DNA of 64,000 nucleotides from Cloeon dipterum. Its lineage: Eukaryota; Arthropoda; Insecta; Ephemeroptera; Baetidae. The DNA is taken from NCBI RefSeq assembly GCF_949628265.1, contig NC_088790.1, positions 8,808,545 through 8,872,544 of the forward strand. Reading direction: 5' to 3'. Made by a program: the position numbers and the translations under genes. This document shows, in pieces, positions 43,748 through 63,793 of this stretch (positions are counted from its first letter, which is position 1; each line of letters starts with the position of its first letter). Under the pieces are notes generated by a model that had not been told where the DNA came from, ran no database searches, and saw only the letters and a list, made by a program, of their open reading frames with translations.

Positions 43748-44693
43748 CTAGGATTGCGTTGAGTTGGCCAGTCCGGAAAGCGAAAAGTTGAGGTCCCACT
43801 GCCCGTTGTCGGACGGGGTTGGCGGGGTCGGCTTGTAGAAAATGACACCTGCCGGGCCAAGTTGGGCGCAGTCAAACGAGATCACAACCAACGGCCAGTC
43901 GTTGAAACGCAGCTCCATGTTCAGGCACGAGTGCAAATTCTGCTCGTCAGTGTGGATATCATACAGCTTGATGCACAGCGAGAGGATCGGCAGCTGTGGC
44001 AGAGGGATGCACAGTGCCGGCGGGTTCTTGCCTTTGAATACGAATTTTTAGAATCTTTGTGGGGACGTTTTTAACCAATTCTATTAATATTGTGTATTAA
44101 AAATAAAATACCTTTAGTCCTGAACGATATAAGAAAATCTAAAAAATATATTTCTTAACATGCTGTAAATTAATTCCCTTCATACCTGAAACTCTGGCGT
44201 TGAAAATTGACACGTTTGAGAGCAGCAAATTAAGCTGGATGGCGAAGTCACTAGGGAAGTAGGTGAAGTTCAGGCAACCTGGTTATACCGATTTTTAAAG
44301 TTGACATTCCTTACTACAATTTAATCAAACCTGTGTGGTTGAAGTTGAGTGGACTGATATCGTAGAGCGCGCAGCATCCGCACGCATTTTTCACGCACTC
44401 GCACTTGCCGGGCAAAGGCAGCAAGCCCTGTTGTGTTTGCGGAGAGTCGATCCGCGGTGCCAACAAATCGACTGTAAAATTTACAAACTCAGCGGAGACC
44501 AACAGCACTTTTTGTAAATGAAAATTATCAACCTCTAAAATCTCGACAATGCCAAATTGGTGAAGCAAAACATTTTGATAGTTAAAAAATGGAAAATCTT
44601 ACAAGTGGAGAAGGACGCAGTGTAGATTGGAATTTCGTTGGCGGCGGCAAAGCAACCAAAGGTGAGGACAATGGCGATGCAAGCAACCACCAT
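43748..44693 (-). CDS. secreted DUF4773 protein A
   Basis: Member of the arthropod cysteine-rich DUF4773 family; function unknown. Four coding exons: 44693-44603, 44471-44331, 44278-44186 (93 bp) and 44031-43748. All introns are phase 1, giving 202 residues. Residues 1-18 form a signal peptide (MVVACIAIVLTFGCFAA). The CxCx4CxCC motif is at C54, C56, C61, C63 and C64. Then come GCLNFTYF, KNPPALCIPLP, LCIKLYDI, HSCLNMELRF and ISFDCAQLGPAG, giving the family's ten cysteines. The tail is short and ends STQS. The start was fixed by a TATA box 50 bases upstream; a longer in-frame Met lies above that box. It is convergent with NAA35 (205 bp between stops) and the first of the cluster. Confidence 0.88.
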
Positions 44694-44742
44694 TTTTCCG
44701 TTTTCCAACTCGAAATACTGCGTTATCTGCCGTGGCCGCTCG

Positions 44743-44751
44743 CTTTTTATA
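44743..44751 (-). promoter_or_regulatory. TATA box of gene A
   Basis: TATAAAAAG on the minus strand, 50 bases before the ATG. Transcription would be expected to start near 44715-44722, leaving a 5' UTR of about 25-30 bases. This decides the start codon of gene A. Confidence 0.6.
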
Positions 44752-45736
44752 CCAAAATCACGCACATTTTAACAACTCGCGATGAATTTACAACTCGTCT
44801 CTTCCTTTTTACTTCTACGTCTATCTCTATTTTACAATTTGATTGCAAAATTGGACTCGATTGTGCGTAGTCGCGGCCCGACAGCCAATAACGAACACTT
44901 GACGTTGATAAAAAATAAAAAAGAAGGTGAAACCGTGTGCAGACAATGGGACATACAAGTTTTGTAGCGCTACACAGTGGAGTGTCGTAAAAGGGTCTCC
45001 TTAATTAGTTCGCTATCATTTTCCTTTTTTATTGGCCATCATATCCTCTTGTGCGTGGAAAAGCACACGTGTCGACATTAAGATTTTGGTATTTGGTCTT
45101 CAACTATTGCTATAACGTCGATCAACTACTGAAATTTGATTATTATTTTGGAATTAGAATAGGTCGCCGAGAAATGATGGCACCGATGGTCGATGTTTTG
45201 CATTTTATTTAACTTAATTGTTGTGGGTATAAAATTATAGATGTAAGGTTCAAATTGAAAACACTTGAAACATCATGAAATAAAAATATTTGGTTGCAAT
45301 TTTTAGTAACCTGAAAATGAATGAAACAAATAAGACTCAACTTCAGGAGTATTAAACTTTATATTTTTACGGAATAATAAATATCAATTTTTTAATTTTC
45401 AAAAACGCTCAAAGGTTTAGTATAATTTTTATGCATTTCTAAATAGTGACGTACTAAATTGGTCGTTCGGATTTAAAACATAATTTCCTTGAAGGAAGTA
45501 ACAGAGATGACGGAGCTTTCCAACTAGGAGGCCCTGGACGAGGATTGACGGCCAAGAGAAGGAGCACGCTTCCTTTTGGAGATTCAGCACTAAACTCGTA
45601 GCTGGTCGCCAAATTGTTTCGGAAAAAGTCTCTGCGCACCGGCTAAACCCATTCCAGTGGGGTGGGTCCAATTAAACCGCTTTGACTAGTTAAAAAAGTT
45701 CAACAACTAAAAATCAGTTCATTTTTAGGCTTAACT
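44752..45736. other. spacer between genes A and B
   Basis: About 1 kb of AT-rich sequence. Two overlapping minus-strand open frames lie at 45429-45671; neither has a signal peptide or the DUF4773 cysteine pattern. Nothing else was identified. Confidence 0.5.
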
Positions 45737-45742
45737 TTTATT
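45737..45742 (-). terminator. gene B polyadenylation signal
   Basis: AATAAA on the minus strand, about 25 bases after the gene B stop codon. Confidence 0.55.
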
Positions 45743-45766
45743 AATAAATAAATAAATAATTTAAAT

Positions 45767-46793
45767 TCAATTTTTGGGAGGCTTCTTCTTGGCGGGCTTC
45801 TTTTTGTTCTTGTTCTTATCGGGCTGCTCAGGCTCAAGTGGGTCGTAATCCTCGCCGACACCGGCCCCAGCGCTACCGCCCCCGCCTCCGCCGGCTCCGT
45901 AATCGATGCTGCCTCCTCCGCCACCGCCGCCAGGCGAAATCTGGCTGGGACCGAGGCCGCCACCGTCCTCAGGTTTCAGGAAGGCGAAGCCGTCGGCGCC
46001 CATGCGGAAACAGTCGAACTCAACGGCCAGCACAGGGTTGGAGTTCACCTTAGTCTGCCACTCAAGGCACGCGTGGAAGTTGCGTCCCGGCGTGAACACA
46101 TTGAAAAACTTGGCGCAAAAATCGAAGCGGGGGATGAGTGACACCAAGCTCGGAATCGGGAAGCACAGTGGCGGCGGGTTTTTGCCTTGTAGAAAAAAAT
46201 AAGACCTCTATTACAAAGATAATATACGATGGACTACAAAACATTATTATTTCTTCAATGACATGTTTTCAAATAGCTGCAAAGATTTTACAAATTTGTT
46301 AAGAGTAAATTACCAGAGACTTGCCGCTCCATCATGGTCCTCTCGTTCATCAGGAATTTAACGCCAAGTGCAAACTCGTCAGGGTCGTATGTAAAGTTCA
46401 TGCAACCTGAAATAGAAGATATATTTATTTTCCATTTTAAATTTTTCATTGTTCCATTTGGCGAGAGTTTTTAGTCGTACCAACTTGGGTGATGTAGATA
46501 GTTTGAAGGGCCATGCCGGCACAGCATCCGCACGTATAGTCCACGCAATGGCACCGCTGCTGGCGCTGCCTGATGGGGAAGATGCCAAGGCTCCACCAGG
46601 GTCGTCTGGTGGTGGTCTCGGCGTTGTCCTGCTTGCCCTCATTATTAGCGCGCAGCAGCGGCTCTTGCGTCGTCAGGGTGGTGACGTCGGCATCCTCGGT
46701 GGTGGTGGTCGTCGTCGTCTCCTCTAGGTCGTGAGCCGACGAGAAGAGCGCCGCCAGCGAGAGGAGCAGCACCGCCGGCCGCCACAGCTGCAT
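45767..46793 (-). CDS. secreted DUF4773 protein B, Gly/Lys-rich tail
   Basis: Function unknown. Three coding exons: 46793-46481, 46406-46314 (93 bp) and 46185-45767; phase 1 introns; 274 residues. Signal peptide 1-20 (MQLWRPAVLLLSLAALFSSA) is followed by a Thr/Glu-rich linker with a run of seven Thr, then the CxCx4CxCC motif at C81-C91. The rest of the domain reads GCMNFTYDPDEF, KNPPPLCFPIP, FCAKFFNVFTPGRNFHACLE and VEFDCFRMGADGFAFLKPED, the closest match here to the family sequence I remember from moths. The tail has two poly-Gly blocks and ends in KKKPAKKKPPKN. The usual intron between signal peptide and motif is missing, so exons 1 and 2 are fused. The ORF reaches slightly above 46793 only through a GTG codon, so ATG 46793 is the start; a 5' UTR intron ending TTTTTAG is possible. 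Confidence 0.88.
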
Positions 46794-47530
46794 CTTGATC
46801 ACTAAAAACCGTACACCAAAGTAAATACGAGTCTCTTTTGGCCTGCTTTATTCCTTTCCTTGGCGGCACCAGTGTGACGTCACGCATCACGGTGAAATAA
46901 AAAAGTTCAGGCATTTCGCGAGCCGACCTAAGAAAAGAAAAAGACACGGCGAGAGCGTTGACCTTTGCCGTACGTTTAGCATCTCGTTATTTGTTGTGCA
47001 AGCTGCGTGAGCGAGTGACACACTAACAATCGCATTGTGCGCTTTTGTATGTATGTGATTGAAGCCGATTTGTTTTTATCCGTGATTCGGTTTCATTGTT
47101 TGGGACATTAGCTTATTATTCTTTGCTCCACTCTCCTTAATTCTTCAGACTCCTTTCAAATTTTACGACTTTGCCCTTTGCATTCTCTTCAATGGTTTAC
47201 ATCTTTTTAGTACAGGCCGATGTTCTTAATTCCAGATGGTAAAATAACATCAACTTTCCTGGTGGCACAGAGCAATGAAATTTCTCCGTTTAAATTGTTG
47301 TATGCTAGATCCTTAAAATGTAACGCATGCGAAAGAAGAAAGACTTTTAAAAATAAATACTTGAATTTCATTTCTTGAAATATTTTTATTTCTCTTAATT
47401 TCACACAGCTGGAGAAATTTTAAAATAATTGAAAAAGTCACATTTTGTCAGTCATATTTATCGTGTTTACACTATTGTTATAAATATTACGGAAATTATT
47501 CTTGTGCATAATGAAAAAGAGAAATTAATT
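46794..47530. other. spacer between genes B and C
   Basis: Contains the promoter side of gene B and then AT-rich DNA. A 65-codon minus frame at 47207-47404 has a signal-like inner start (MKFKYLFLKVFLLSHALHF) but only about 54 codons and no supporting splice or promoter structure, so it is not called. Confidence 0.4.
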
Positions 47531-48898
47531 CTATTCTCTCGGTCTCCTGTTGGTTTTATGTATTTCTTCGATTTCTATAAAAGTTGTTGTTGGCAATGAG
47601 GGCAGATTCACTTTTCCTTCCACACGCATTGGTTGGATCCTGACAATGTGGGAATCAGAAGTCTTGCTCGCTGGTCTCGGCGTGGGTTTGGGCTTCTTTT
47701 TTGTTTTCTTCACCGGCGTAATTGGAGTAGGTTCATAACTGAACAAGAATTTAATCAAATTATAATGCCGATGAAAAATTGCTCTTAAACCAAAGTATAC
47801 TGCCAACGTTTTGCTGGCAATTAAATACCAGTCAAATGAATAAGGGTCTTGTATTATTTGGATTTCAAATTATTTGGTCTCTTTAAATCATTTGATTTAG
47901 AGTCTGATTGGCTATAGACTCAATCAAAACTAAGAATAACGAGACTCACACGTCCTCCTGGAGGTTATCGTTAGTGTAGTCCTCGGGGTCGAGCTGGTCG
48001 TAGACGTCATCGACGTTGGACGGCTTCTGCGGCTGCTGGTCACTCGTCTGGCCGCCGCCTGCGGACACGCCACCCTCCTCGGGCGACAACAGCGCTACGC
48101 CCTCCATACCGACCTTGACGCAGTCGAAGGACATCTCGAACATGGGCTCACCAAAAACGCGGCCCTCCATGTCGATGCACGTGTGGATGTTGGGACCGGC
48201 CAGGTACACGTTTGAGAACTTGGTGCACAGCGTCACGAACCGCAGACGCGGAACCGGTATGCAGACCGGCCGCGGATTCTTTCCTGCGAATTATTTAAAA
48301 TCTAACAATTTTCATTGATTCTTTTTGATCAGGATACCTGAGACGACCCGTTTGTACAGCATTTTGTTATTCATCGTGATGCTCACGGCCATTTCAAACT
48401 CGCTTTGGTCATACTGCATGTTTGCACAAACTGAACACCAAAAGAGTCATTATATAGGAATAGGAATATAAATTTCTTGTTTTAAATGTCTTACATTCTT
48501 GCCCAAGCGATGCAAACGACACGCCAGTGCAACATTTGCATATTCCCTCGAGGCATCTGCAAGGTCCTTTGCTCTCGGCTCTGAAAACGGTAGTGTCGGC
48601 ACCTTTTTCTTGCGCTATTTCGGCGAAAACTAGTCGAAAAAAATTAAGCAAATAATTTAATAAAAAATCTCAAAAGGAATTCATAATATGTAGTTTAGAG
48701 AAACTTAGTTTAGGTTAGTGAGAAACCCGATTCTTTTTAAATGTTTCAATCGGAAGTAAAAGCAATTCCTCTGACAAATAGCTCACCTTCAGGGGGCAAG
48801 GTGACGTTGAAAAAGTAGCCGGGCGGGTGGGTACGGGCACAGCTTGGAGTAGCCAGATTCAGCAGGACCAGAGCAATCAAAGCAACAAATTTCTCCAT
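47531..48898 (-). CDS. secreted DUF4773 protein C, with optional Lys/Pro tail exon
   Basis: Function unknown. Exons: 48898-48787, 48629-48495, 48430-48338 (93 bp), 48283-47950 and 47738-47531; 293 residues if all are joined. Signal peptide 1-22, then CxCx4CxCC at C61-C71, FCANMQYD, KNPRPVCIPVP, LCTKFSNVYLAGPNIHTCID and MSFDCVKVGMEGVALLSPEE, followed by an acidic tail ending DDVYDQLDPEDY. At the end of exon 4 the bases GACGTGTGAGT can be read as Asp-Val-stop (225 residues, stop at 47946-47948) or as a strong donor (GTGAGT). The donor joins in phase to exon 5, which adds 69 residues: PTPITPVKKTKKKPKPTPRP and a tail ending NRRPRE. Because exon 5 has a good acceptor (TTGTTCAG) and its phase closes, I take the spliced form as main; the short form may be a retained-intron isoform. 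Confidence 0.82.
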
Positions 48899-49665
48899 TC
48901 CTGTCGCTTCACAACCGCCGCACATCTCGGCGCTGAGTTTCTTTTCCGCCTCGTCTAGCGTAATTATTCCCTTTCCCCATCTCGAGGATTTTCAACGCTC
49001 CTTGTTCCCTCTTTTTATTCAAATGCACAAAAGTAAGCATCGCAGCTATAAATACACTTTAAGATGCGGAGGTAATTTAATGTACAAATAAAATATGGTG
49101 TACCGCTAATCAAGCGAGCGGCCGTGCAGTCAGTGGGTCAGTCCCGTTAGACCGAAGACGCTGCGATGGGCGGTGGCGAAAAGGGGGTCAATGGGTTTCC
49201 GACCTTCTCGTTTCTATCGAAAATGAAAAAACCAGCGTTGATTCTTAAGCTTTCTAGACTTTATTTATCATTATTATGGCAATAAATAGAGTATCGCGCG
49301 AGTGACATGGTGACACCTCCGTCTTTTTTATTTGGTGAAAATTTCAGACGCTGCCCGACCGTGGATTTTCCAAAATTTATATCAAACATTCATTGTTGTG
49401 CTGACATGGTAAAATGGGCAATAAACCTCAGTCTATTATCGATTAATGAGCGGAGAGCGTGTATTACATACAATAAATAATCAATCGTTTCGCTTGCGAT
49501 AGAAATTCAACAAAAACACTTTTCCTTAACAATTATATTTACATTGAGCAAATGCGGTGTTTCTTTCATTTTCGAGTATAGCCGATGGTATGTGCGGGCA
49601 CGGAGAAATAAATTAAATAAATAAATAAATAAATTATTAATAAATTAAGTTGCGTGGCGGCAGGG
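48899..49665. other. spacer between genes C and D
   Basis: Holds the gene C promoter side (CpG-rich near 48900-48960, no clear TATA) and the gene D 3' flank. An (AAAT)n run lies at 49609-49634, and further AT-rich sequence. No gene seen. Confidence 0.5.
49609..49634. repeat. AAAT microsatellite
   Basis: Consecutive TAAA units just beyond the gene D stop codon; simple sequence. Confidence 0.7.
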
Positions 49666-52608
49666 TTACAAGCCCGTGGCCCTCGTGTTTCTGCGTTTCA
49701 CGATGACGGACGCGGTGGGCTTGGCCGCCATCACCTTGTCCTTGGACTGCTCTTCCTCCTTGACGGGCTTCGAGCTGCTGCTGTTGTCGTCGTCCTCATC
49801 GTCATCGTCCAGACTGACCTCACCCACCTCGTCGACAAACTTCTCCATCTCGTCGATGATGTCAGACGAGTCGTCCTCGGTGGTTGTGTTGCTCACCGGC
49901 GCCTTGGTCGTGTCCGGCTTCGCAGTCGTTACCTTCTTCTTGTCGTCACCGTCATCGATGTCAGCCACCTCCAGCTCGCCGATGCTCTCCACCTGCGAAA
50001 AATATAATTTTAGTTTTAAAGGAAAATCTAAAGAGTAATGGTCTCTTCCCCAAGATTAAAAGCGATTGGAACCTACCTCTTGGACGACTTCGTTGATGGC
50101 GGCTTCTAGCTCGCTGCTAAAGCTACCTGGCTCCTCAGTGGCGTTTTCCTCCTCTTCGTCATCCTCATCCTTCTCATCCTCGTCATCCTTTTCCTCCTCA
50201 TCATCTTCCTCATCGTCCTCATCATCGTCCTTTTCCTCTTCGTCGTCCTCCTCATCGTCGTCATCATCATCCTCCTCCTCCTCGGAAGACTCCTTCACGG
50301 GATCCGGTACTCTTTCAGGCTTGGAGGTGGTTGTGGTGGAGACGGAGACCTGGACAGAGGTTGTGGGTGATAAGAGGATGGTGGTGGGGGACTTTTGCGT
50401 TGTCGTCGAAGGGCTACTCACGGTCGCCTCAGTGGTGCTGGCGGGCTTAGCGGGTTTGGAAGGTTTGGCGGGTTCAACAGCCGGTTTAGCAGGCTTGACA
50501 GGCTTGGCGGGCTCCTCGGCATCCTTGGCTGGCTTCTTCTTCTTGACTGGTGTTTGCTCAGCCTCCTCGGACGCAGTGACGTCAGACGTGTTGGCGTCAG
50601 ACGTGTCGGCGGCGGCGGCCTCGAGCTCCTCGTCAGAATCATCTCCAAACAGGTCGGAGAGGAAGCCGAACAGACCACCGCCCTCCTCCTCGTCCTCGTC
50701 GGTCTCCTCGCCCTCTGCAACGTCGTTTTCCTCGTCATCACCGTATTCAATCTCGATGTCATCGTCGTCATCCTCCTCATCATCGTCCTCGGCGTCCTCA
50801 TCTTCATCGTCATCATCGTCCTCCTCCTCAGTGACGGCGCCCTCCTCGGAAGTGCCCTGCTTTCCCTTGTTGTTAGCGCGGCGACGGAACTCAATCTCGT
50901 CATCGTCGTCACCGGCGTCGTCGCCGAAAAGGTCGCCAAAGAAGCCACCATCATCGTCATCATCATCATCGTCATCTTCGTCGCCCGTGGAAGCGGGCAG
51001 GGGTGGCGCGGCGGTCAGACTCACGCCGCGCTCGCTGAACTTGAAACACGACACTCTGAGTGAGGCTTCCAGGTCGAGCACGGCGCGCAGCTCTAGACCA
51101 AGGCAAGCCCGGAAATCATCGCCTTCGCGGGCGATCCCGTACACGCGGCCGCAGAACTGGCTGAAACCGCCCGGCATGTCCAAACACGCGCGACGTGGTT
51201 TCTTCTCTGCAATTCAAATCCAAAAAATTAGAAGTATACATAAAGTATATGAAAGAATGGAAAAAATGTATACAATCTTTTTATGTAAAGCAGCAGGTGA
51301 TTTAAAAATTTTTTATTTATATTAAATTTAATTTTTAATTTATTCAGTGAAACATTAAGTTAGATAAATATTTATGTTCAGATTCTTTTTTTCATTTGCT
51401 AGCTAAGCGCGTTGAACTTCAAATTTTCACAAGAAAAGATCCAGTTATTCTAAGCAGTACTGACACAGAGGACATGAAAGCTTGTTTTTTTAGTCTCTGT
51501 GCGGATGTTGCAAACAAACGCGACAATCAATCAATTTTCACGGCCCACTTACCATCGATGGTCATGGTTCGCACAATGACGTTATCTCCGAGCTTCATGT
51601 TGAGAGACAATTTATCACCTTTCTCGTACTTTAGGGACGCGCAACCTGCGAAAAGAATAATTATTTTTTTGCGGCAGAGCAATTTGTGGCTTTTTTAAAG
51701 TGGCGAATTAAAAACGAGAGGAGCAAGCAAACTGGTTTTGGGTGGCTGAGAGTGCTTGTTAGCACACTCTTGGACGCGCCAAAGTACCGTTCTGTAGAGA
51801 GGAACGGGCGTTAAAATCGCCACATAATCGCCTCGTGCTGAATTCCTTTTGTCCTCTAACAGCTCAGAGAAACAAGCCCAGATTTTGCTGGCAGATTGTT
51901 TTACAAGGACAAGGAAGTTTGAATGAATTTTAATTTCCCAAGAAAAAAAATGTGCCGCCATTATTCCTTTGCAGCATTAATACAAATATGGAATTTTTGG
52001 ACCCATATTTTTGAATGTCATTATAATTTATTATGAATCGTACCCTTGCTGCTGATGGGCAGGATGGGGAGGGCAAAATTGCGGCAACAGTTGCACTCGA
52101 GCTTGGTGCACTTGCAGAAGCGGTCCGTCGTGTTGAGTACTTCGTTCTCCACGGCAGCCGGGGTCACTTCAGCGACGGCAGCGGAGGTCACCTCGGCCAC
52201 TGGTGCCGCGGTCGACGCCACTTCGGCGACAGCAGCCTCGACGGCCTCGATGACATCGGTTGTTGCCTCAGCATCTTGTCTCGATTGGATCACTTCAGGG
52301 AAAAATCAGCAAATATGATTTAAAATCAGCTACTTCATAAAAAAATACAAATTAAAATTGCTCAAAGTAATTTGATACTGAAGAAAAAAATATGTTTAAA
52401 ATATTTCAAAAACGGAGTAATTTTTACCAATTAGTTTACAGTATTACAGTAGTACTTGAATCCTCGCATATCAAGTAATGTAGACCGTCTCACAGTGGAT
52501 TTTTGAGCAAAGTCCTTTAGGAAAATTTTGCAAAAAAAATAGCTCACCTGATCTGGCGGAAGCGGAGGCGAGGAGCAGGGAGAGAAAGAGCGCGATTGTC
52601 AACCTCAT
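49666..52608 (-). CDS. secreted DUF4773 protein D with very long acidic tail
   Basis: Function unknown. Exons: 52608-52548, 52292-52044, 51645-51553 (93 bp), 51206-50077 and 49992-49666; 619 residues, far longer than its relatives. Signal peptide 1-18 (MRLTIALFLSLLLASASA). An Ala/Val/Glu-rich linker of VAEVTSAAVAEVTPAAV type precedes CxCx4CxCC at C80-C90. The domain continues with GCASLKYEKG, ACLDMPGGFSQFCGRVYGI, FRACLGLELR and RVSCFKFSERG (C142, C153, C169, C188), so all ten cysteines are kept although the NPPxC motif is replaced. From about residue 209 on, the tail is dominated by Asp/Glu runs, interrupted by a KPAKPVKPAKPA repeat and Thr/Ser-rich parts. The last exon (512-619) is acidic with a basic end (VKRRNTRATGL). 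The long complementary plus-strand frames here (Ser-rich) are shadows of the GAx codon repeats. The first three introns are phase 1, the last phase 0. Confidence 0.86.
52421..52504. repeat. dispersed repeat, copy 1
   Basis: Starts TTTTACCAATTAGTTTACAG and later has CATATCAAGTAATGTAGACC followed by GTCT and CACAGTGGATT. It matches 54572-54655 with scattered substitutions and small gaps. It sits in intron 1 of gene D. Confidence 0.55.
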
Positions 52609-52864
52609 CTTCTTGTTGTTTTGATTGCGGCTCGCGGAGAGTGGACGGCTGGCTGGTGGCTAAGCCGCGGATTGGGACGTGTCGGCCGCACCTGGCGGAG
52701 CAAACAAATCAAGGATCGCGCACTACGAACGGACACAGGCAAAGGCCGGCCACCGACTGCACTGCCCGGCACCACTTTTGTGCGTGTGAAAATTGATAGA
52801 GGAGAGTAGAAGGGGTTTCTTAATAAAGCACGCACACAAACGCACCATCCACACGCGGTTTCGT

Positions 52865-52931
52865 TATAAAAAGGCCAGCCCAGGCACGGACTGTCCTTGG
52901 AGAGTGGAGATTAGCACGAATTGTAGACTTG
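52865..52931 (+). promoter_or_regulatory. orphan TATA promoter with a possible noncoding first exon
   Basis: A canonical TATAAAAA (52865-52872) on plus is followed about 60 bases later by a consensus splice donor GTGAGC at 52931. No ORF starts between them. It points away from gene D (whose ATG is 257 bp to the left) and toward gene E (ATG 56981). It may be a distal 5' UTR exon of gene E or the start of a noncoding transcript. Confidence 0.35.
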
Positions 52932-54571
52932 TGAGCATTTAAAAACTGATTATGTGCGGTGGAATGCAATTGATTCTAACGGAGATACCCGGAAATTTAT
53001 GACTGTCCAGATCCGAAGCGGTTTGGTTTTAGCAGTACTTTTTCAGTTTTGCAAAAATGTAAGTTTATTTAGTCTGCATTGCTGTTTTTTTATATGTCTG
53101 CAACATTTTTTTATTAAATTTTAACCAATTTCTTTTTGTAAACGTTTTAAAATATAATCTGAAAGGACAGAAAATTTGAGGGTCTTGAAGACTAAGAATT
53201 GTTTTTCAAAAATCAACAAGAATCCTTCAAATTAAAAAAAAATGTCAGAAAATAGCTTTCAGAAACCCAACAGCAATAAAAGCCTCTTGTGAAGAAAATG
53301 CAACCATTCGTTTAAATTCAAGAGACAGAGTAGAATTTTAATTTTGAATACCGGTTAGGTATCGCGAAACGGAAATTAATATTTGCACATCACAGACTTC
53401 CGAGTTGAAGTTTGAGCTTGGGACATGCCGGGCCTGAGTGGCTAAAAGAAGCAGATTTTGAGATCGCCGCGGCGGCCAGAATAAATAAATAAATAAAGTA
53501 CGCGGTGCACGCGGTTTGCTGGCCTACATTATCAGAAGCGGTTATCGACCTGGTTCAGATCGCGCGTTTGACACGAACTTCCCAAAACACAGTTAGGGGA
53601 CTCTTTGGAAAAGTGCCGGGAAATACCTGGTCTAGGAAGATGCTTGGCAAGTGGGCACTGACGGAGCCGCTTGCTTTTCGTTCCGTTTGCCGTGGCTCCT
53701 TGGGCTCTTCTGATGAGCAGGAAAATGAACAAGAGGAATGTCGGTCATCAGGGGGCGTGCGGCCCCTCCATCCTCCCAGCGCTGCTCCTCTGGCTCCTCT
53801 GGCCAAATTTTGAGCGTCCAATAATTATGTCACTCGCTGGCATTCCGATCGGCCGCCAATTTCGTCGTCTCTTCCGAACAGTTACGCGCGCACACTTGCT
53901 TTGGTGCGGCCGTGACCCGCGTGGCCGCCGGCCGCTGCATTATTACCGTTCTCTGTTGTCTCCGTCAAGGCTGCGTGCGTGCCATTCGATTCCTGCTGAT
54001 GATGCACGCGCCTGCCTCGTCCTTTCCGTGATTCCGATTTGACACGCAGATCGGAATGCTAATTCGTCTGCCCTGCCGAGAGTTTTAATTAGGCTGCAGG
54101 TGGCTTTGGCCATGCATTTCAAATCAAATTTCATTTTTGGAAACTTATAATGAGACCAAATCGTGCAATGTAAATTATCTTAAATCTCATTAATTATAGG
54201 AGTTTTAAATCTATTTTGCAATGAAATTACACAAGGTTTTGGATTGATCATTTCAGATAGATTTTTTTCTTTCCGTTTTATCTTCTCTAATCAGAAATTC
54301 AACATTTATCTAAAAAGCATCGTTCGTTTAAAAAAAATATCCAGTCTAATATGCGAATTGGCACTGATTTTTTTAACGAGTTGTTTTAAGATGGTTCTGT
54401 CGCGGGGACTGAAGCATATATTAAATTCAAGCCAAACAGGTTCTTAGTCCTCTTATTAGTTTCTCAGAACCTTTGCTATTTGGTCAACAGAATTTTGACA
54501 GGAAGCCTTTTTGCCACGCCTGTCGCAATGTTCATAATATTTGCAAAGAGTGGAATATAAAATCAAAATAA

Positions 54572-54655
54572 CTTTTACCAATTAGTTCACAGCATTAATT
54601 TATTACTTTAATCATCATATCAGGTAATATAGACCGTCTTAGATCACAGTAGATT
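54572..54655. repeat. dispersed repeat, copy 2
   Basis: Related to 52421-52504: both share TTTTACCAATTAGTT, an ACAG-ATTA core, CATATCA-GTAAT-TAGACCGTCT and CACAGT-GATT in the same order. The two copies are about 2.1 kb apart in the same orientation. Confidence 0.55.
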
Positions 54656-54971
54656 CTTCATCTTGCAAGCAATTCTTGCGTGCTTGCGAATTTTTAACAA
54701 TCGAGTCAATATTTGCTATTTCTTCAACAATCAAAAGCACTGTCTCAAACCTGCTCTTCCGAATTTGTGTACAAAGAGGTAAAAAGTGTTTGAATATGTT
54801 TCTCAGAAAGTGTGAAGAGTAATTCTGTGGCATTGCACCGCGTGCTCCCTTGGTAATAATTTTTGGCTGTTCCAAGGATTGCTTTCGGAATTCACCTGAA
54901 AATTTCATATTTATTGCAACCTTGTTGGCTCGCGTGACCATTTTTGAACACGTGTTTACTGCATAATTCAT
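54639..54971 (-). CDS. unrecognised 110-codon open frame
   Basis: Starts at ATG 54971 and ends inside dispersed-repeat copy 2. The peptide is mixed polar and hydrophobic, with stretches such as SHFLRNIFKHFLPLCTQIRK and ETVLLIVEEIANIDSIV that could be helical. It has no signal peptide and no DUF4773 cysteines. It could be a chance frame, a mobile-element remnant (given the repeat at its end) or an exon. I do not assign a function. Confidence 0.2.
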   Translation of the reverse strand: MNYAVNTCSKMVTRANKVAINMKFSGEFRKQSLEQPKIITKGARGAMPQNYSSHFLRNIFKHFLPLCTQIRKSRFETVLLIVEEIANIDSIVKNSQARKNCLQDEESTVI

Positions 54972-56980
54972 AAATTGGCAGACGCGGCGAGGAGGAATTA
55001 AATTAAGGAAGGGGATACGCGCGTCGAAAACGAACGGCGTGCGGAATTTTGCTAATGATGTTGCGGTGTTCTATTGCTGCGGCGCTGCGCATAACGGTTC
55101 AACCCACCGATCACGGCTGCACAGAGCAAACGCGAGATTAAAAGAGAGAAGAAAAAATGTCAAGTCGTGTCCTTCGAAAGGTTTCCCCGCGCGTCGGCCC
55201 CAAAGTAGAGCGTTCAAACAATGCGTCTCGCAGCTCATTTTCATACATTGCCCCCTTGGAAACGATGACGTCAGCCCCCGTGCTCCGGGATGATGCATAC
55301 ACGACTTTCTTTTTGCGTCTTTTTAACGCTTCTTCGGAATGATCTTTTAGCTTCCTGCAGCGAGAGCAGGATGGGGAAAAACTGCGACGATCGCGTTTAA
55401 GTGTGTTTGGTTTACACAATGTGTGCGATTAACCCATTAGCACTGAAAAGAAGTAGAATGACGAACAGGGGCACACTCGTCGAAAACGATTTCCTCCTCG
55501 TCGCGCACAGCTCGGCACAACAACAATTTTTTCGTTTTGCACGAAGCAGAACGAGCAAGAAACTATTTCAAGAGCTATTTTCTTGTGAAAATATTTTAGT
55601 GAATTTACCCTCCAATTAATAAAATAAACTGTTTCACTATGTATTTTCTACAACTAAAAACTATTCTGCGGTCTCGATGAAATTGCTCATTAAGCTTAAT
55701 CAACTAATTATGCAAATCGAATTTGTTGCAAGAAGAGGGTAAAAATAAATTCTACAGTAAAAATTTGGGTTTTTCTTAACGTAATAGTACTTAAAAAAGT
55801 AAGGGGAAGGAAAATAGTTTATATTTCACTGCAAGAAAGGCTTTCTGTGTTGTTTTAAAGTATTAAAGAAAAAATCGTAATAGAATAGTGAAAGTCTCGT
55901 GGTTGGCGTGACTTGGGAAAAAGATGAGTACTTTTTTGGTGTTTAAAAGTCTGATTTGATGAGGTTCTTCTAGTCAGCCATCGTATCATATATAGGGGTG
56001 CGACAACTCTAGAATGGAATTAACTTTAAATATTTCTAAAGCCCATTCCGAGCAAATTTTCTGTGCTTGTAGCAGAAATTTTGAGCAAAAATAAACATTT
56101 TGTCAAATAAGTTCATGCCAGCCTTGATATTAGCCTTGTTATTTATTTAATATTTGATGCCGTGCCAATTTTGATTTAAAACTAATCCTAATTTTTAATA
56201 GAGTCACATACTGGCAAGATTATTTTAATGGTGCTGCCAGAATGTTTTTAAAATACAGGTTTATTTCCTGAAATTCATCATCAGTGACTTAATTTGAATA
56301 AAAATATTTTTGCTATGAGTGGTAGCGTAAGTTAAATTTTTCTTTGTGTGTTTAAATAACAATTTTGCTAATTTAATTTCAAAAGAAAGAGTTTTTAATA
56401 TTAGTTATTTTTATTGTTTTTAAGGATTTAATTGAAAAACGACGAAGAAAATTATCAAGTTGAATTTTACAGTATTTCTGAGAAAAGATACGACATTATG
56501 AATAAATGAACTAACAATAATAAAATTGTTTTCATTCAGGTGATCTCAAACGGTTTTACCGTTCCAAAAGTGTTTCAGTAAATGGATAAAAGCTGCTCGT
56601 TCAACGTTAATTAAATTATTTTAGGACATCCCCATTTTTGCTAGTTTATCCGTTTTCTTTTCAATTTATGGCTTTAAAAGTGATTTCTTCTCGAAGCTTC
56701 GGCTGCAAACTGAGAACTGAAACTGTAACGTCGCGATTTGCAGGGGATTCGACTCGAGTGGGGGCGCAACAATGGGCAACAATCATCATAAATCGCGTGG
56801 AGGAGTGAAAATGTGTTCCACCTTTGCACGCGCGAGCAATAGTCGGGCGAGGCGTGAGTGGCTGCTTTTTGAAATGTCGGTCAGCAGGTAAAGGGTTTCG
56901 AGAGAGCGCGAAGTGTGTCGTCCTCGCGCTGAGCGCCGAGTGCCGAGAGTTAGACGGCAGCCGACAGCGCAGCAGCCAGC

Positions 56981-59817
56981 ATGCGACTCGTGCTCCTCGT
57001 GGCCCTTCTCGTGTCGGCCGCATCGGCCAAGTCCTTCCTCACCCGTGAGTGCCCAAATCCCAACGAATTCGATCATTCCTCTCGAGCGCGCCTAACTGTT
57101 CTCCGCGCAGTTACTTTTCTCTCTCTCTCTCGCTTCTCGGCCACCAGCGAAGAGCCTCTTTGAAACGGTTAATTTTTTGTGAACCCAAGCTAGGGGGCTA
57201 TTCATTATATTGACTCGGGAGACTTGGTTATTCTTTTTCCTTTTCCTGATGCGATGCCCCTCCGCACAGGCACTATTATTCGTAGTTCATTTACAGGTTT
57301 CGTCGAAATCAAAAGTAAAAAAGCCGCTAAAGAAAGGTCGCTCTCTACCCGCATTTTTTCTTCGCTCACAAGGAAATTACCCTGTATTTTACAAATGTGT
57401 CAGATTGAAAATGGCAAATTTTGTGTCTTTTTAGAATAAATAAAACTTCCATTCTTTGGCATTCAGCCAATTAAAATACGCAAATCGCATTTCAAATCTT
57501 CTATTTTTCTCCAACAACCTTTGAAAATAAGCTTTTCTTAATAAATTCATATGGATGGTTCTAACAAATATGTCATCGTACAACATTTTAAAACTGAGCA
57601 TTGTCTAATTGTTAAATATGTATATAGGTCAGAAAAAAAGCCATAAAAACTGTGCCATGAACCTCTGTAAAAATTGACAGTTCCAAAAATAATTACAGCC
57701 ACACTCATTTTGGTTGAATTTTCTTGACCTTTTATATGTTTTTGTGTGCAGAGCTGCTGGGCTTGGACTTTGGCGTAAGTAAGGGCGGCCCAAAGGCGGA
57801 CGCGAAGCAGGACAGCAGCCCCATCAGCAACTGTGTGTGCAACGGCCCCGGATGCGTGTGCTGCAACGACTTTAATCTCACCTACATTGACCTAGGCGGA
57901 CCAGGCAAGTTTAAAACCCCATTTTTTATCGCTCTCTTTATTCCTATCCCGCGGCATGACTAATTTCTAGATCAATTTGTCTTGAAAAGTGGACTAACAG
58001 GATCTTGGCTGTACAATGAAAATAGAGCTGTAGCGGTTCCCGCTTATTGGCGTTAACTTAGTTTGTAACCTTTAGATGTCACTTGTAACTGTATGATAAG
58101 CTTTTCTAATTTACCCTGTATAATACACCTTCACTGACCGCTCACCTACGCACGCATACGGTCATGTCGCATTTACCTCTCCGGCCGGGAGTATAATGTC
58201 GTGCGCATAATATGACGCTTGTAATAACTTATAGACCCGAAGATAATACCGGGGTAAGCATTGTATTTAACTGTGATAATAATTATTGTTATTCTCGACT
58301 CGCATATTGATGCGTTAATTAATTGTTTATATATTGACTTTCCTTTGAGATTTTATTGTGAATATTTATTATGTAAAACTTTACAGTCTTATTTATGGAT
58401 TAAATCTACGTCTACAAAGGAACCAGATGCATTTCCTTTTGGCTCGAACCGAGTACCCCACAGAGCAATATTCCTCGAACAATATGCATTTGTATGGAAA
58501 TTAATCGCTCTCGTCATGCTCCCAACTTGGAAATGAAATTGAGTTGCACTTTTTTATTACTTTCTCTCTTTCTTGCGTTTTTTCTCTCCTTGCCTTGTTG
58601 GTCGCCGCAAAGCCGCTTTTTACGCTTTTACTCCTTTTATTCTCACCTGCTCACTCATTGTTGTGATTTCCCTTTTGCACGCAGGCTGCGTGAGTCTGAA
58701 ATACCTTTCTCCTGAGGAAGGAATGGCTGTGAACGTCTCCTACGGTGACAGCCTGCTTCACAGCGAGGTCGTCAAAGGTAAGTTATCATTTGATCGCTTT
58801 CTGAACTGCTTCAAATAATAACATGAACTTTCATAAAACGTTTCTAAAAATATCCTTTTGAGCAAAAGCGTCCCTTTTATTTCTGTGAAGCCATGTAATT
58901 TTATTTCGTCATAATTTTTAAATAATAATATGCGTGATAGATTAAAGAAAACGTTTGCAATTATGCAAATTAGAAATGCCAGTCTTAACAACCTTCTTTG
59001 AGCGATTCATTGAAATTAAAACTAAAAATACACTGGCATTATCTTTCATTTGTACGATAACATTTCAACTCAAGATGCACAAGAAGCAGCTCTATCTCTA
59101 CTTTAATTTAATTAGTAAGGTTCTGATTAAGTGAATATTTTGTTACGTTTTGTTTCTCATACCTGATTTCTCCTTATTTATTTTTTTTTTGTAGAATTCT
59201 TTTACTTAGAGTTTGAGACCCCTCAATATATTATTTTAGTTTAGTAATATTTTTCGTTTCTGTATAATATTACTAACGCACAATCTGTGGCAAGTCCCGT
59301 TGCAATTTATGGTGTAAATTATACAGGCCCGAACCCTGAGCCGACGTGCATGAGCCTGCTGACGGACCTGGCGCAGGTGTGCGCCCGCATCCAGGACCTG
59401 CAACCGACCTCAGATGGCATGCGGGGCTGCGTGAGCATGGAGCCGCGGCTGCTGGGCGAGTCGACGGCCGAGTACGACCTAGGCTGCTTCCGCGTCGGGC
59501 CTGAAGGCATGACCTTCGACCCTCCAGCCAACAACACGAGGCCCGCCACCACCCAGGGCGAGGCCGGAACCGCTCCTGAGGAGGAGGAAGGCGAGGGCCC
59601 GACCGAGGAGGAGGTAATCGCGGCTGTGAACGAGACCGCTGAGCAGGGCCTCGCCTTCCTCGGCAGCCTTTTCGGCATCGACTTTGCCAGCCTGGCCGGC
59701 AACGCCACCGAGACCCCGGACGCTGCCTCTGAGGCCCCCGTCGCTGAAACCAGCACCACCGAGCGCGCCGCCAGGGCCATGGTCGTGGCCAACAACCCCC
59801 GCCTCAACGAGGTCTGA
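56981..59817 (+). CDS. secreted DUF4773 protein E
   Basis: The only plus-strand member of the cluster; function unknown. Exons: 56981-57044, 57752-57904, 58685-58777 (93 bp) and 59327-59817; phase 1 introns; 266 residues. Signal peptide 1-16 (MRLVLLVALLVSAASA). CxCx4CxCC is at C49, C51, C56, C58 and C59, followed by GCVSLKYLSPEEG, PNPEPTCMSLL, VCARIQDL, RGCVSMEPRLLG and YDLGCFRVGPEGMTFDPP. The Glu/Ala/Thr-rich tail holds a possible amphipathic segment (AFLGSLFGIDFASLAG) and several N-glycosylation sequons (NNT, NET, NAT). Intron 2 begins with GC (CAG|GCAAGT), the usual form of a GC-AG intron; no GT at this place keeps the frame. Introns of 707, 780 and 549 bp are longer than in its relatives and hold nothing I recognise. 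It is convergent with gene F. Confidence 0.86.
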
Positions 59818-60184
59818 TCTCCCGAGCCAATGAGAATGAGTGAAAACCGGTCTTCAAGGGTGCAAAGCCCACGTAGTGTGCTTATTTATTGCTCTTTTCT
59901 AGTGTCTTTCCGCTTTTCTGTATACTTTTTACAAAATATATATTATTAATTGTAACAGGATTAGCGTTTTTTCTTTTTGAAGCACCCTATCAAACCCCAC
60001 ATTCACAGTCGTCAAGGGTGCCCCCACCCCCTCAAAGACTGGAGTCAAGGGGGGATGACGTCTAAATATTTTACTAAAATTAACGCTCCTGTGCTGCAAA
60101 AGGAGGCTAAGTGAATTGAACCGATTAATTCAAGGAGTTTCGTTGCTTTATTGAAGTAAACAATATTTTCCCAAAGTAAAATTT
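59818..60184. other. 3' spacer between convergent genes E and F
   Basis: Both genes end here. A C-rich/G-rich patch lies at about 60018-60056. No AATAAA was found soon after gene E; for gene F one lies at 60147-60152 on minus. Confidence 0.5.
60147..60152 (-). terminator. gene F polyadenylation signal
   Basis: AATAAA on the minus strand, about 33 bases after the gene F stop codon. Confidence 0.55.
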
Positions 60185-60986
60185 TTAAACCAAGATGACG
60201 CTAATCAGATCTTTGTATGGCTCAGTTGGCTTTGGACCGATATTGACACAACCGAGGTCGTAATGGGCGACGCGAACCCTCTTCAGCCTGGCTTCCGCCT
60301 CGACGCAGCCATGAAATTTGTGTCTGGTCACGTCCAGGTCAAACATTCGCAGACACACTTCAGCCCACTTCTTCAGGTAAGGCATACCAATACAAAAAGG
60401 CGGCGGATTCCGGGCTGAAACGATCCAGGAAAAATAGCCCATGAGGTTAAAGTGATTTGGACGTTGTGCTAGATTTCGACACTATATAGTTATTATTTTC
60501 AAGTGTTTTGAGGAAATTTCCGAATAAAGTTTTAAAAATCTGATCTATATTGTTTTGGCATTCTTTTTTTTTAACGGAAAACCTAAAATTTAATTTAATT
60601 TGTTACCGGAGACAGTTTCGTTGAAAAGAGTATGGTGGTTCAACGTGATGGTGTAGGATAGGCCGTAGTCGTCGCTCAAGTACGTCATGTTCGTGCAAAC
60701 TTTATGAACAGAGAGTCAAGTAAATTAGTCATTTCTTATTTCCGCTAATTTAAGTCCTCAACTTGTGCTGTTTAGCTCAATCACGTCCACCTGCATGTGG
60801 GAGCAGCATCCGCATGTGTAAGTGCTGCAAACGCAGCTTCCTAGGTTTAGGGCTGTATTTTTTTTTAAATTTCAAGATTGAATCTAAACATTAAGAAAAT
60901 ACTTTACCATTGATCGTATAAATTGCCTCCGACGCTTGGACTGTCACCAAAAGCACAAGCAAAATTCCAAAAAATGTAGTTTCCAT
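60185..60986 (-). CDS. secreted DUF4773 protein F, minimal form
   Basis: Function unknown. Exons: 60986-60908, 60852-60763, 60699-60607 (93 bp) and 60414-60185; phase 1 introns, the first only 55 bp; 163 residues. Signal peptide about 1-20 (METTFFGILLVLLVTVQA). CxCx4CxCC is at C33, C35, C40, C42 and C43, followed by VIELNST, ICTNMTYL, RNPPPFCIGMPYL, VCLRMFDLDVTRHKFHGCVE and YDLGCVNIGPKP. The protein ends soon after the last cysteine, so it is close to the bare domain. The donor of exon 2 (GTTGAG) is weak but is at the position used by all relatives. Gene G lies 250 bp upstream on the same strand and is its closest neighbour. Confidence 0.86.
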
Positions 60987-61200
60987 AATGGTTATAGGAA
61001 AGAATATAATAAAGCAAAACAGATAAAAAAATCACTGCGGAGATTCTCAATAATATTGTTGTTGACGCAAAGAGAAATTATCAGTAGAGTTCCAATATAA
61101 TCATTATCAGGAGGTTGATTACAGTCGAGTTAAGTTGCATTGGCGCGCTTTCTCGTGGCTGATGGTGGAATCTAAGGCGGCGATAAATTCGTTAAATATA

Positions 61201-61210
61201 TTTATTTATT
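61201..61210 (-). terminator. gene G polyadenylation signal
   Basis: Two overlapping AATAAA hexamers on minus, about 26-35 bases after the stop codon of gene G. Confidence 0.6.
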
Positions 61211-61235
61211 TCTACAGGTATACACGGTACACAAA

Positions 61236-62086
61236 TCACTCATATGTTTGCATGCTAGTTAAGTAGCCCGCCACATACCTCTCTTTGAGATACCTGAGAA
61301 TGGAAATTGAGTCGTCTCCTGTGAACTTTGCAGGCACTTTGAAGCAGCCGAACACGGCACGCGCGATTCGGTCATTTTTAACATTAAGGATAGCTTCCAG
61401 GCAGCAGCTCAACTGATTATTGCTTTCCTGCACTTTGTAGAATCCGACACAGATCTGCACCACCCTCTTCGTCTCGGGAACGTTGTAGCATTTGTGTGAC
61501 AGTTCCTCCACTGTGAAAACGCATTTTAGCTTAAAAGTGTTGGGGTAAAATACTTTTGAATTTAGATTTCACCGGTAGCAGTTTCATTAACGATGACTTT
61601 GTCGTTCAGGTCCAATATGAAAGAAATTCCGTAGCTCTTACTTAAATAGGTTACTTGGGTACATACTGTAAATAATAAGATTTTAGTATATGGGCGATGC
61701 GATAAAAAAAGTCGGTGCTTCCCCTGTTTGAGTATGCATGTTTCTCTAAAATTCTTTACTTGAATTTTATAAATTATACTCTCAAACATTTCAAATAAAA
61801 GAGATTGTATTTCCCATAAATATAAGATAAAGATATCTTAAACTCTCACATGTGCTGTTCAGTTCAATGATATCTGCTTCCAAATGGACGCAACAGCCGC
61901 ATGAGTGATGGGCACACTCGCATTTTGAGTTATTGTCGTGCGGATCTGTGGATTTGATGCTATAGTTATTTGGATTTTTAATTTTAATATCCACGTACTC
62001 TCTACAACGTACCAAATGTAGCAAACGGTTGCAATCAAGCCGATGGCGCCGACCGCGAGCAGACACACACAGGCTAACTGACTCAT
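61236..62086 (-). CDS. DUF4773 protein G, possibly membrane-anchored
   Basis: Function unknown. Exons: 62086-61999, 61945-61850, 61665-61573 (93 bp) and 61510-61236; phase 1 introns, the first 53 bp; 183 residues. The N-terminus (MSQLACVCLLAVGAIGLIAT, then VCYIWYVVE) has a hydrophobic stretch of about 22 residues and no clear cleavage site, so it may be a signal anchor. CxCx4CxCC is at C38, C40, C45, C47 and C48, followed by IIELNST, CTQVTYLSKSYG, KCYNVPETK, ICVGFYKV, LSCCLEA and FGCFKVPAKF. NPPxC is lost and an extra Cys is present. The donor GTACGT at 61998 was chosen because the other GTACGT, 14 bases upstream in the gene, would create a stop at the junction. VIELNST in F and IIELNST in G point to a close relationship. 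Confidence 0.83.
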
Positions 62087-62163: not shown

Positions 62164-63452
62164 CCATCAAACAAACAATCTGCGATTGATAATAACAATT
62201 TTTGATTAAAACAATTTATAAAGAGACTCTTATCAAACTCATAAAAGTACCAGATTATGTATACCAATAAATTTATTAATGTAATTTAATTTTTAGCTGC
62301 GATGCACGGCTTCTACCTGTATCTCTTTCCCTCTGGCGAAGAACGACCATCATTCAGAATAATTGCAAAACCATCACACCCTTAAACTAATCTTGACATT
62401 CCCTGACCGACTAAAAGGGTTTAAGGGGTGCTTAAACCCCTAAACGGCTATATTTCAACCCCTTGAAAATATTAATAACTTTATCATGCTGGAATTTTCT
62501 ATTCTCTTGCTTAAAAGATAAAAATGTTCTCTCAGAATTTTGAAAAAGCCATAGGGTGGTAATTTAGAGTGAGTTTAGGACAATTCAAAATAATTAATTA
62601 AGTGCTGCTGGTAAGCATTTTTAGTAGTACGTTTTTTGCTATTAAAATTATAGGATGAGGATGATTGCCTACTGATATTTTGCAAATTGAAAAAAATTAC
62701 GTGGTTAGATATCATATCATTGACAATGAGTGCGTAAATTAAGTTGCAATTATATACATAATATATGTCAATGGCTAATTTAAAGATGAATGAAATATTT
62801 ATTATTAATTTGTAATTTAAAGATGCAAGATCAATTTTGCTTAGTATGTTCCTTCATTAAATACATATAGGGAAAACCAAAGAACTTCATACAATTTTTA
62901 TTCCGTTACTTTCAAAATATATATGACATGGGATCTGGTGAGGAAATATGAAATCACCTGAAATCACCTGAAAATCACTAATACACATTTTCATGCTAGT
63001 TAATTGTAAGTAACCAGATATGTTATCTGCGATAGCTGTTATCAATTTTTTAATCAAAAATACAATTTATGAAGAGTATATCTTATCAAACTCGTAAGAA
63101 CAAAATCATACTTAAAACGTTTAAAACCAAATTTTTAGCTCATTCGCGCATGACTCAATTCAATTAATTTATTTGTCTTTCAGCATAGCAGTAAGTTCAT
63201 AGTTCATATTCATAGATGATGATCTTCTCACAATGCACCCTTTCTGATTGCAAAATATGTTCTTCTACTGCTCAAAGTGCATAACAATTTCCGGAATTTC
63301 CAATCATCAAATTGATTAAAAATCCAAATAAGAATTAATGTAGAAGAGTATCTACATGCAATGACAATGCTGACGTTTTGGCTGATTTCCCGCTTCCCCC
63401 TCGCCAGGCAGCATTTAAATTTACAGCGCGAAATTCGAATTTGTAAACAAAG
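62164..63452. other. spacer between gene G and MTIF3
   Basis: AT-rich. It contains a small hairpin (62417-62439, arms GGGTTTAA/TTAAACCC), a short GAAATCACCT tandem near 62948 and a likely remnant of a gene G copy (62974-63115). Just before MTIF3 the sequence is less AT-rich and TATA-less. Confidence 0.45.
62974..63115 (-). pseudogene. likely remnant of a gene G duplicate
   Basis: Two pieces match gene G and its flank in the same order. Bases 62974-63004 (AAATCACT, then CATGCTAGTTAA) resemble the end of gene G's last exon (61233-61263). Bases 63022-63115 (ATCTGCGATA, CAATTTTT, CAATTTATGAAGAG, CTTATCAAACTC) resemble the region upstream of gene G (62178-62260). The gene body between them, about 850 bp in gene G, is gone. 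The upstream match is good; the exon match is short. Confidence 0.4.
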
Positions 63453-63793
63453 ATGGCAGCGGCCGGTCTGTCGCACGCACGTCAGCTGCTTCTGCAAACC
63501 TTTGTCAGGACCAGGGGTGTGTTATCGGTGGCGGGTATCGCACCGAGGGTGACATGCGGTCGTACGGGTCCCACGGCCCTCTTCTGCTCGGAACGGAGCC
63601 AAAAGGGTCCGGACGGCAAGCCACCTGCACGGCCCAAGACGGTGCCCAAGCCGCTGGTGACCCTGCTTGGACCGGAGAAGGGCAGCATGACGGTAATGCT
63701 ACTTGAGGAGGCCGAGAAGATTGCAAGGAGACGCAGCTTGCAGCTCGAGTATGTCTCTGACCCTGATGCCAAGAGCAACAGGGCCACCTACAG
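63453..63793 (+). CDS. MTIF3: mitochondrial translation initiation factor IF-3, first coding exon (partial)
   Basis: Binds the small mitochondrial ribosomal subunit, keeps the subunits apart and checks initiator tRNA pairing. Only the first coding exon lies in the window: 113 codons plus two bases, ending at the donor AG|GTAAAA; the rest is beyond the right edge. Residues 1 to about 45 are Arg/Ser/Ala-rich without acidic residues (MAAAGLSHARQLLLQTFVRT), like a mitochondrial presequence. TLLGPEKGSMTVMLLEEAEK and RRSLQLEYVSDPDAKSNRAT match the IF-3 N-terminal domain pattern (GP..S..VM.LEEAEK.A......L..V). The start is the first ATG of the frame. Confidence 0.75.

Follow-up and report, generated by a model that had tools for sequence, protein, structure and literature searches.

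Proteins annotated with DUF4773 have been listed in a locust, an oyster and an octopus, and the passages of open-licence PMC full text that name the domain assign no function to it. The locust transcript SgreTa0002988 is 601-fold higher in pleuropodia than in legs and occupies the third row among the most abundant transcripts up-regulated in the secreting pleuropodia, organs that act on the serosal cuticle; that table also has lysozymes near its top, and the row for SgreTa0002988 carries neither an immunity nor a cuticle-digestion mark (PMC6966819). In the oyster, G14414 is a listed gene of haemocyte cluster 1, which is macrophage-like, and 34% of the cells not belonging to that cluster show it as well (PMC12064177). 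A further DUF4773 protein is reported from octopus skin mucus (PMC11431876). The three sites, each recorded as one line of a table or one entry of a list and coming from distantly related animals, fit a reading of the proteins as secreted or acting in haemolymph.

The window, the whole 64-kb stretch of Cloeon dipterum DNA analysed here, contains seven DUF4773 gene models (D1 to D7) at 43748-62086. All seven splice cleanly, six on the minus strand and one on the plus, which upholds the cluster of seven paralogs proposed in the initial annotation. The array is a tandem set of seven intact PF15998 gene models built on one common plan, in which a short exon for a hydrophobic leader (fused with the next exon in D2) is followed by an exon with CxCx4CxCC, a 93-nt exon and a four-cysteine exon that runs on into a free tail. 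Exon 3, in the middle, has a length of 93 nt and phase-1 borders in all seven genes, and in 12 of 12 once the relatives on contig C4 described below are added; exons 2 and 4 differ in length. The plan is departed from in D2, where exons 1 and 2 are joined, and in D4, which has a fifth coding exon. All splice sites are GT-AG except for a single GC-AG intron in D5, located after exon 2. D3 very probably also has a longer form of 293 aa, in which exon 4 would run to 47950 (GTGAGT donor) and be joined to a candidate exon 5 at 47531-47738; the donor and acceptor match in frame. An alternative acceptor is possible further upstream for exon 2 of D1.

Table 1. Gene models of the DUF4773 array and adjoining features (positions in the window; Pfam scores are for PF15998).
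Feature	Position	Strand	Structure	Basis
D1	43748..44693	-	4 coding exons 44603-44693, 44331-44471, 44186-44278 (93 nt), 43748-44031; 202 aa	splice model; 110.6 bits
D2	45767..46793	-	3 coding exons (1+2 fused) 46481-46793, 46314-46406 (93 nt), 45767-46185; 274 aa	splice model; 113.5 bits
D3	47531..48898	-	exons 48787-48898, 48495-48629, 48338-48430 (93 nt), 47946-48283; 225-aa form	splice model; 113.6 bits
D4	49666..52608	-	5 coding exons 52548-52608, 52044-52292, 51553-51645 (93 nt), 50077-51206, 49666-49992; 619 aa	splice model; 96.7 bits (first 213 residues)
D4-D5 gap	52609..56980		4.4 kb separating the head-to-head pair D4 (-) and D5 (+)	
D5	56981..59817	+	4 coding exons 56981-57044, 57752-57904, 58685-58777 (93 nt), 59327-59817; 266 aa	splice model; 104.2 bits
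D6	60185..60986	-	4 coding exons 60908-60986, 60763-60852, 60607-60699 (93 nt), 60185-60414; 163 aa	splice model; 107.3 bits
D7	61236..62086	-	4 coding exons 61999-62086, 61850-61945, 61573-61665 (93 nt), 61236-61510; 183 aa	splice model; 72.1 bits, weakest of the seven
NAA35, NatC auxiliary subunit (left neighbour)	40329..43112	+		matches in three open frames
MTIF3, probable first exon (right neighbour)	63447..63794	+		no Pfam match for this exon

The left neighbour was correctly named as NAA35, being matched by the Mak10 and TPR_NAA35 profiles and also by solved NAA35 chains. The right neighbour is probably MTIF3, whose putative first exon gave no Pfam match. No additional DUF4773-like open frame (≥20 aa) was found in the D4-D5 gap with hmmsearch at E up to 1, and the window gave no match to Rfam or in a tRNA scan. 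Pairwise identity among the seven paralogs is 19-38%, and their branching order is unsettled, with branch supports of 39-76 in the tree.

Whole proteins were scored against PF15998, for which the curated gathering cut-off is 27 bits, with D4 entered as its first 213 residues and D3 as the 225-residue form. All seven spliced models exceeded the cut-off (72.1-113.6 bits, E 7e-20 to 9.8e-33), each match beginning at position 1 or 2 of the 118-position profile and ending at 114-118. The DUF4773 assignment was thus borne out; the arthropod scope given with it was too narrow, since oyster and octopus members are annotated (PMC12064177, PMC11431876). The array is best read as members of a known, uncharacterised family. 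Matches below the Pfam cut-offs to NS3_helicase_C (D5), RLAN (D7, E 0.00095) and MetallophosN (D12, E 0.003) were taken as chance, as was the single match, under its cut-off, from NCBIfam on D2 and D6.

The six frames of the window contain CxCx4CxCC exactly seven times, every time inside one of D1-D7, and 60 windows simulated with a first-order Markov model do not contain it at all. The initial annotation had described this motif in every paralog, together with a middle exon beginning [GFIL]C-x-[NSQ]-x-x-Y, and both descriptions agree with all seven models. It had also described four further cysteines ending in F/G-C-x-x-x-G; the four exon-4 cysteines are present in all seven genes (D7 has a fifth, extra cysteine beside the third), but the C-x-x-x-G ending holds for five, the residue at +4 after the last cysteine being Ser in D4 and Pro in D7 in the alignment. 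The aligned residue preceding that cysteine is Asp in D1-D3, Ser in D4 and Gly in D5-D7. Across D1-D7 only the ten cysteine columns and a single tyrosine are invariant, which is what a disulfide scaffold would be expected to show; no acidic, His or Ser position is invariant in the alignment.

All 12 proteins, D1-D12, have a hydrophobic N-terminus by Kyte-Doolittle hydropathy and a crude -3/-1 rule, and D1-D7 are probably secreted, although the leader of D7 might be an uncleaved anchor rather than a signal peptide. Among later 19-residue segments of D1-D12 mean hydropathy never exceeds 1.55, so no clear membrane anchor is present; the segment of D1 that reaches 1.55 lies near the customary limit for a membrane span. 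The tails are varied. That of D4 has 431 residues, 38% of them Asp or Glu, that of D2 is first Gly-rich and then Lys/Pro-rich (29% Gly), and the extended form of D3 has a Lys/Pro-rich stretch; the tails of D6 and D7 are 20 and 35 residues long and those of the contig C4 relatives 6-26. AlphaFold2 models of the exon-4 half consisted of strands only with D3 leading (mean pLDDT 89.5) and of four strands with D6 leading (mean pLDDT 80.9). A fold search with this half in the PDB and in BFVD (viral proteins) gave no match at E up to 0.001; what it did bring up, SnoaL-like, VirB8 and phage proteins with E of 0.65 and 0.24 at best, was dismissed as generic curled sheets, and the single match of a sequence-profile search of the PDB, a thioredoxin-family chain at E 1.3, was judged to be chance.

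Contig C4 of the same genome harbours at least five more intact DUF4773 relatives (D8-D12) and two decayed copies, in which stops are present and parts have been lost. At the default limit the PF15998 profile gave six matches in the whole genome, all within the cluster; a lowered limit and queries with new members gave the five additional intact genes, which rules out that the family is confined to the cluster here. Genome searches from D10 and D12 yielded no further intact gene, the D12 query adding the second decayed copy, and those from D2, D4, D5 and D7 yielded nothing certain beyond the cluster. A profile match at C2:24434217 (E 4.4) had the look of an exon 2-3 fusion and was attributed to chance, as the surrounding DNA contains no matching exons. 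Paralog profile scans of the DNA at C2:19419009 (E 0.12) and C4:9018159 (E 0.018) were empty, and the DNA around C3:31210009 (E 0.89) gave matches only at E >6. Candidate matches at C1:17864504 (E 0.018, three internal stops) and C4:33268552 (E 0.8) came from the D12 query. A generic COX1 probe gave two short matches, on contigs C1 and C5. On bacterial and archaeal contigs a query with the D2 domain found seven stretches matching a pattern, none of which encoded a relative.

Three of the five contig C4 genes reach the PF15998 cut-off (D8 51.4, D9 37.4 and D10 27.0 bits); D11 falls below it at 21.5 bits, and D12 gives no match at E up to 1. D12 is nevertheless intact and 43% identical to D11 across 138 columns, and Pfam therefore undercounts DUF4773. 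With the framework cysteines numbered Cys C1 to Cys C10, and C0 denoting a new one (contig C4 is a distinct label), all ten are present in D1-D7, and on contig C4 they are shifted or lost in even numbers, giving counts of 10, 6 and 4. Cys C3 is replaced by Tyr in all five contig C4 genes, and D8, D9 and D10 have Cys C0 7-8 residues before Cys C1 (with a one-place shift in D10). D11 has six cysteines, being without Cys C0, C2, C7 and C8, and D12 has four, having additionally no Cys C1 or C4. Cys C5, C6, C9 and C10 are kept in all 12 proteins; one stray cysteine lies outside the leader in D7 and in D10.

This even-numbered loss suggests a disulfide map. We tentatively propose, with a little less than even confidence, that this genome contains a natural disulfide-dissection series of DUF4773: if all cysteines are paired, Cys C1 would be bonded to C4, C3 (or its replacement C0), C2, C7 and C8 would form two more bonds, most simply C2-C3 and C7-C8, and C5, C6, C9 and C10 would be the indispensable core, the reduced branch being a distinct subfamily whose last member lies beyond Pfam recognition. 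Seven full copies in one array, together with a diverging branch that loses framework cysteines in even numbers, provide natural variants for work on the fold and its disulfides.

The sequences and predicted models slightly favour the view that these proteins are secreted, mainly-beta, disulfide-locked, probably non-catalytic extracellular scaffolds diversified by tandem duplication. Each would be secreted and fold as a compact mainly-beta domain with about five disulfides, which would serve outside the cell as a stable scaffold for binding a ligand or matrix and is probably not an enzyme. Where the domain is located or what it coats would be set by the tails, which are acidic in D4, Lys/Pro in D3 and, in D2, Gly-rich before turning to Lys/Pro. 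Duplicate copies would have been retained to serve different tissues or partners, with epithelial secretions or haemolymph as the most likely setting. Like the initial annotation, we infer that the paralogs may have diversified extracellular functions. That the models are chance open frames or decayed copies is scarcely credible; they are based on sequence alone, but the Pfam matches in all seven, the constant 93-nt exon, the phase-matched splice sites and the empty simulated windows argue against it, and the decayed copies on contig C4 look different, with their stops and missing parts. In our view this reading is already refuted for the domain parts, the tails appearing less secure.

The composition of the long tails in D4, D2 and D3 would also suit proteins with a structural or coating role in cuticle, eggshell, serosal fluid or glue, the domain forming cross-links and acidic or Gly-rich tails binding mineral, chitin or other proteins, and the high level in locust pleuropodia points the same way (PMC6966819). 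We consider this unlikely, however, given the short tails of D6, D7 and the contig C4 relatives, an oyster haemocyte gene that does not point to cuticle (PMC12064177), and Pfam tables of D1-D7 (D4 as its first 213 residues) with no chitin-binding family. Humoral immune effectors, antimicrobial or pathogen-binding and diversified by an arms race, are quite unlikely: a tandem array of such divergent paralogs, the macrophage-like oyster cluster (PMC12064177) and the lysozymes in the locust table are consistent with them, but the DUF4773 row of that table has no immunity mark (PMC6966819). Probable secretion, richness in cysteine, tandem duplicates and strong divergence outside the cysteines could also describe secreted protease inhibitors or disulfide proteins of the venom or saliva type. 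This appears very unlikely, as the Pfam tables of D1-D12 contain no inhibitor or toxin family, their other matches being under the cut-offs, no solved relative was found by sequence (best E 1.3), and other members are annotated in oyster haemocytes and locust embryos (PMC12064177, PMC6966819).

Set against PF15998 itself, D1-D7 share the near-full profile and the differences seen are in their varied tails only. The locust SgreTa0002988 has its domain annotation in common with D1-D7 and is strongly expressed in a secretory organ (PMC6966819). Oyster G14414 and the octopus protein, recorded as a table line and a list entry, come from molluscs and likewise share the domain annotation with D1-D7 (PMC12064177, PMC11431876).

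The initial annotation had proposed seven paralogous genes encoding DUF4773 proteins in the window, and each of the seven (D1–D7) gave a complete ATG-to-stop frame once the DNA had been read, splice sites set by hand and exons joined. The introns used were all GT-AG, with the single exception of a GC-AG intron in D5. This intron, the second of D5, has a good splice consensus apart from its GC donor. Intron phase was 1 throughout, except in the last D4 intron, which lies within the tail, and the middle exon measured 93 nt in all seven genes. The motif CxCx4CxCC occurred exactly seven times in a six-frame translation of the 64 kb, once per gene, and was absent from 60 simulated first-order Markov windows.

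Comparison with PF15998, the Pfam profile of DUF4773, had been suggested as a check; all seven spliced proteins passed the 27-bit cut-off, scoring 72.1–113.6 bits (D4 was entered as its first 213 residues). Their matches began at profile position 1 or 2 and ended at 114–118 of 118, and matches were obtained even with single exons. Pairwise identity was 19–38%, and the invariant columns in the alignment of the seven domains were ten cysteines and one tyrosine. A closing motif, F/G-C-x-x-x-G, had been described as general and did not hold as such, C-x-x-x-G being present in only five of the seven (D4 has Ser and D7 has Pro). These data show that the cluster consists of seven intact PF15998 gene models arrayed in tandem, in which the exon plan is rigid and the cysteine framework is the conserved element; the original finding was correct and its interpretation sound.

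Coordinates of features in the window and on contig C4 of the same genome
Feature	Location	Strand	Remark
DUF4773 cluster, D1–D7	window 43748-62086	D5 plus, others minus	seven intact models
D3 fifth exon	window 47531-47738		likely, predicted
Ser-rich open frame	window 50060-51325	plus	421 residues
D5 intron 2	window 57905-58684	plus	GC donor
Polyprenyl synthetase match, open frame	window 25166-25534	minus	profile match
Second DUF4773 array	C4:271804-284363	plus (intact genes)	
D11	C4:271804-272423	plus	intact
Decayed copy	C4 near 273.4 kb		
D10	C4:280142-280820	plus	intact
D8	C4:282330-282950	plus	intact
D9	C4:283783-284363	plus	intact
Inverted duplication	C4:1428642-1446485		
D12	C4:1432272-1432859	minus	intact, four framework cysteines
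Second decayed copy, of D12	C4 near 1441.9 kb		

The D4 tail, encoded by two exons, extends 431 residues past the last cysteine, is 38% Asp+Glu and has a net charge of -123. Opposite its acidic-tail exon, the Ser-rich frame appears to be a side effect of GAC/GAG-rich repeats and does not merit gene annotation. In D3 a strong donor, GTGAGT, overlaps the stop codon, and a downstream acceptor keeps the frame into a 208-nt exon; because the phase fits, this fifth exon is likely, and the extended predicted protein would have 293 residues with a Lys/Pro-rich stretch resembling that of D2. The left neighbour of the cluster is NAA35. The right neighbour is presumably MTIF3, from the resemblance of a frame at 63447 and of frames past the window end, and its putative first exon gave no Pfam match. 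The open frame matching polyprenyl synthetase is one that we take to resemble PDSS1.

The genome (190.1 Mb, 10 contigs) yielded six matches in a first PF15998 search, all within the window cluster. A looser limit and searches seeded with newly found members identified further genes on contig C4, at least five intact (D8–D12) and at least two decayed, these counts being lower bounds as only the best candidates were scored. Four intact genes and one decayed copy form a second array, while D12 and its decayed copy are flanked by the two arms of an inverted duplication (97.7% identity across 3548 columns). All five intact genes have the 93-nt middle exon with phase-1 borders, making 12/12 with the window genes. 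Sequence identity links D12 with D11 (43% over 138 columns) and D11 with D8 (37% over 149). A maximum-likelihood tree of the twelve placed the contig C4 genes together (support 100) and D11 with D12 (99); branching order within the window cluster was poorly supported (39–76).

The framework cysteines, numbered C1–C10 along the domain with leader cysteines left out, were compared in an alignment of the twelve. C5, C6, C9 and C10 are kept in all, and C3 is Cys in the seven window genes and Tyr in the five on contig C4. D8, D9 and D10 have a new cysteine, C0, located 7, 7 and 8 residues before C1, which is displaced one place in D10. D11 is without C0, C2, C7 and C8, and D12 additionally without C1 and cysteine C4. 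Totals are therefore ten in ten proteins, six in D11 and four in D12, all even; one further cysteine each in D7 (beside C9, the third exon-4 cysteine) and D10 (in the tail) counts against strict evenness. PF15998 scores drop along the same path, from D8 (51.4 bits) through D9 (37.4), D10 (27.0) and D11 (21.5) to D12, which had no PF15998 match and whose sole Pfam match was MetallophosN, below cut-off (E 0.003). If every cysteine is bonded, the joint loss of C1 and cysteine C4 in D12 suggests that these two pair, and the losses shared by D11 and D12 suggest two bonds among C0, C2, C7 and C8. The simplest pairing would be C0 with C2 (earlier C3 with C2) and C7 with C8; two others would account for the losses just as well.

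Two structure predictions from the seven window paralogs covered the exon-4 half of the domain. With D3 leading, the model had five strands and no helix (mean pLDDT 89.5, pTM 0.65), and with D6 leading four strands (80.9, 0.58); strand tables place each of the four exon-4 cysteines on a separate strand in both. The D3-led model matched no fold in the PDB or viral models at E <=0.001, and no fold is claimed, since modelling half a domain gives a poor basis for assigning one. We infer that D1–D7 are secreted, disulfide-bonded and mainly beta. Our best guess, from leader hydropathy, the lack of invariant catalytic-type residues and the expression sites of distant relatives, is that they would act as non-catalytic extracellular scaffold proteins, with the tails setting placement in secretions or haemolymph.

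In a full-text literature search three papers mentioned DUF4773, and none mentioned PF15998 or IPR031941, presumably the DUF4773 identifier. Among distant relatives, a locust embryo DUF4773 transcript (9112 RPKM, 601-fold over legs) takes third place in a table of those up-regulated transcripts that are most abundant in secreting pleuropodia, its row tagged neither immunity nor cuticle digestion (PMC6966819). An oyster gene is listed for haemocyte cluster 1, 'macrophage-like' in the figure legend, with detection in 34% of the remaining cells as well (PMC12064177), and an octopus skin mucus protein is among those down-regulated in one comparison (PMC11431876). The excerpts of these three papers give DUF4773 no function. 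D1–D7 are members of this already known family; what is new is a second, cysteine-shedding branch on contig C4 and the disulfide map that it suggests.
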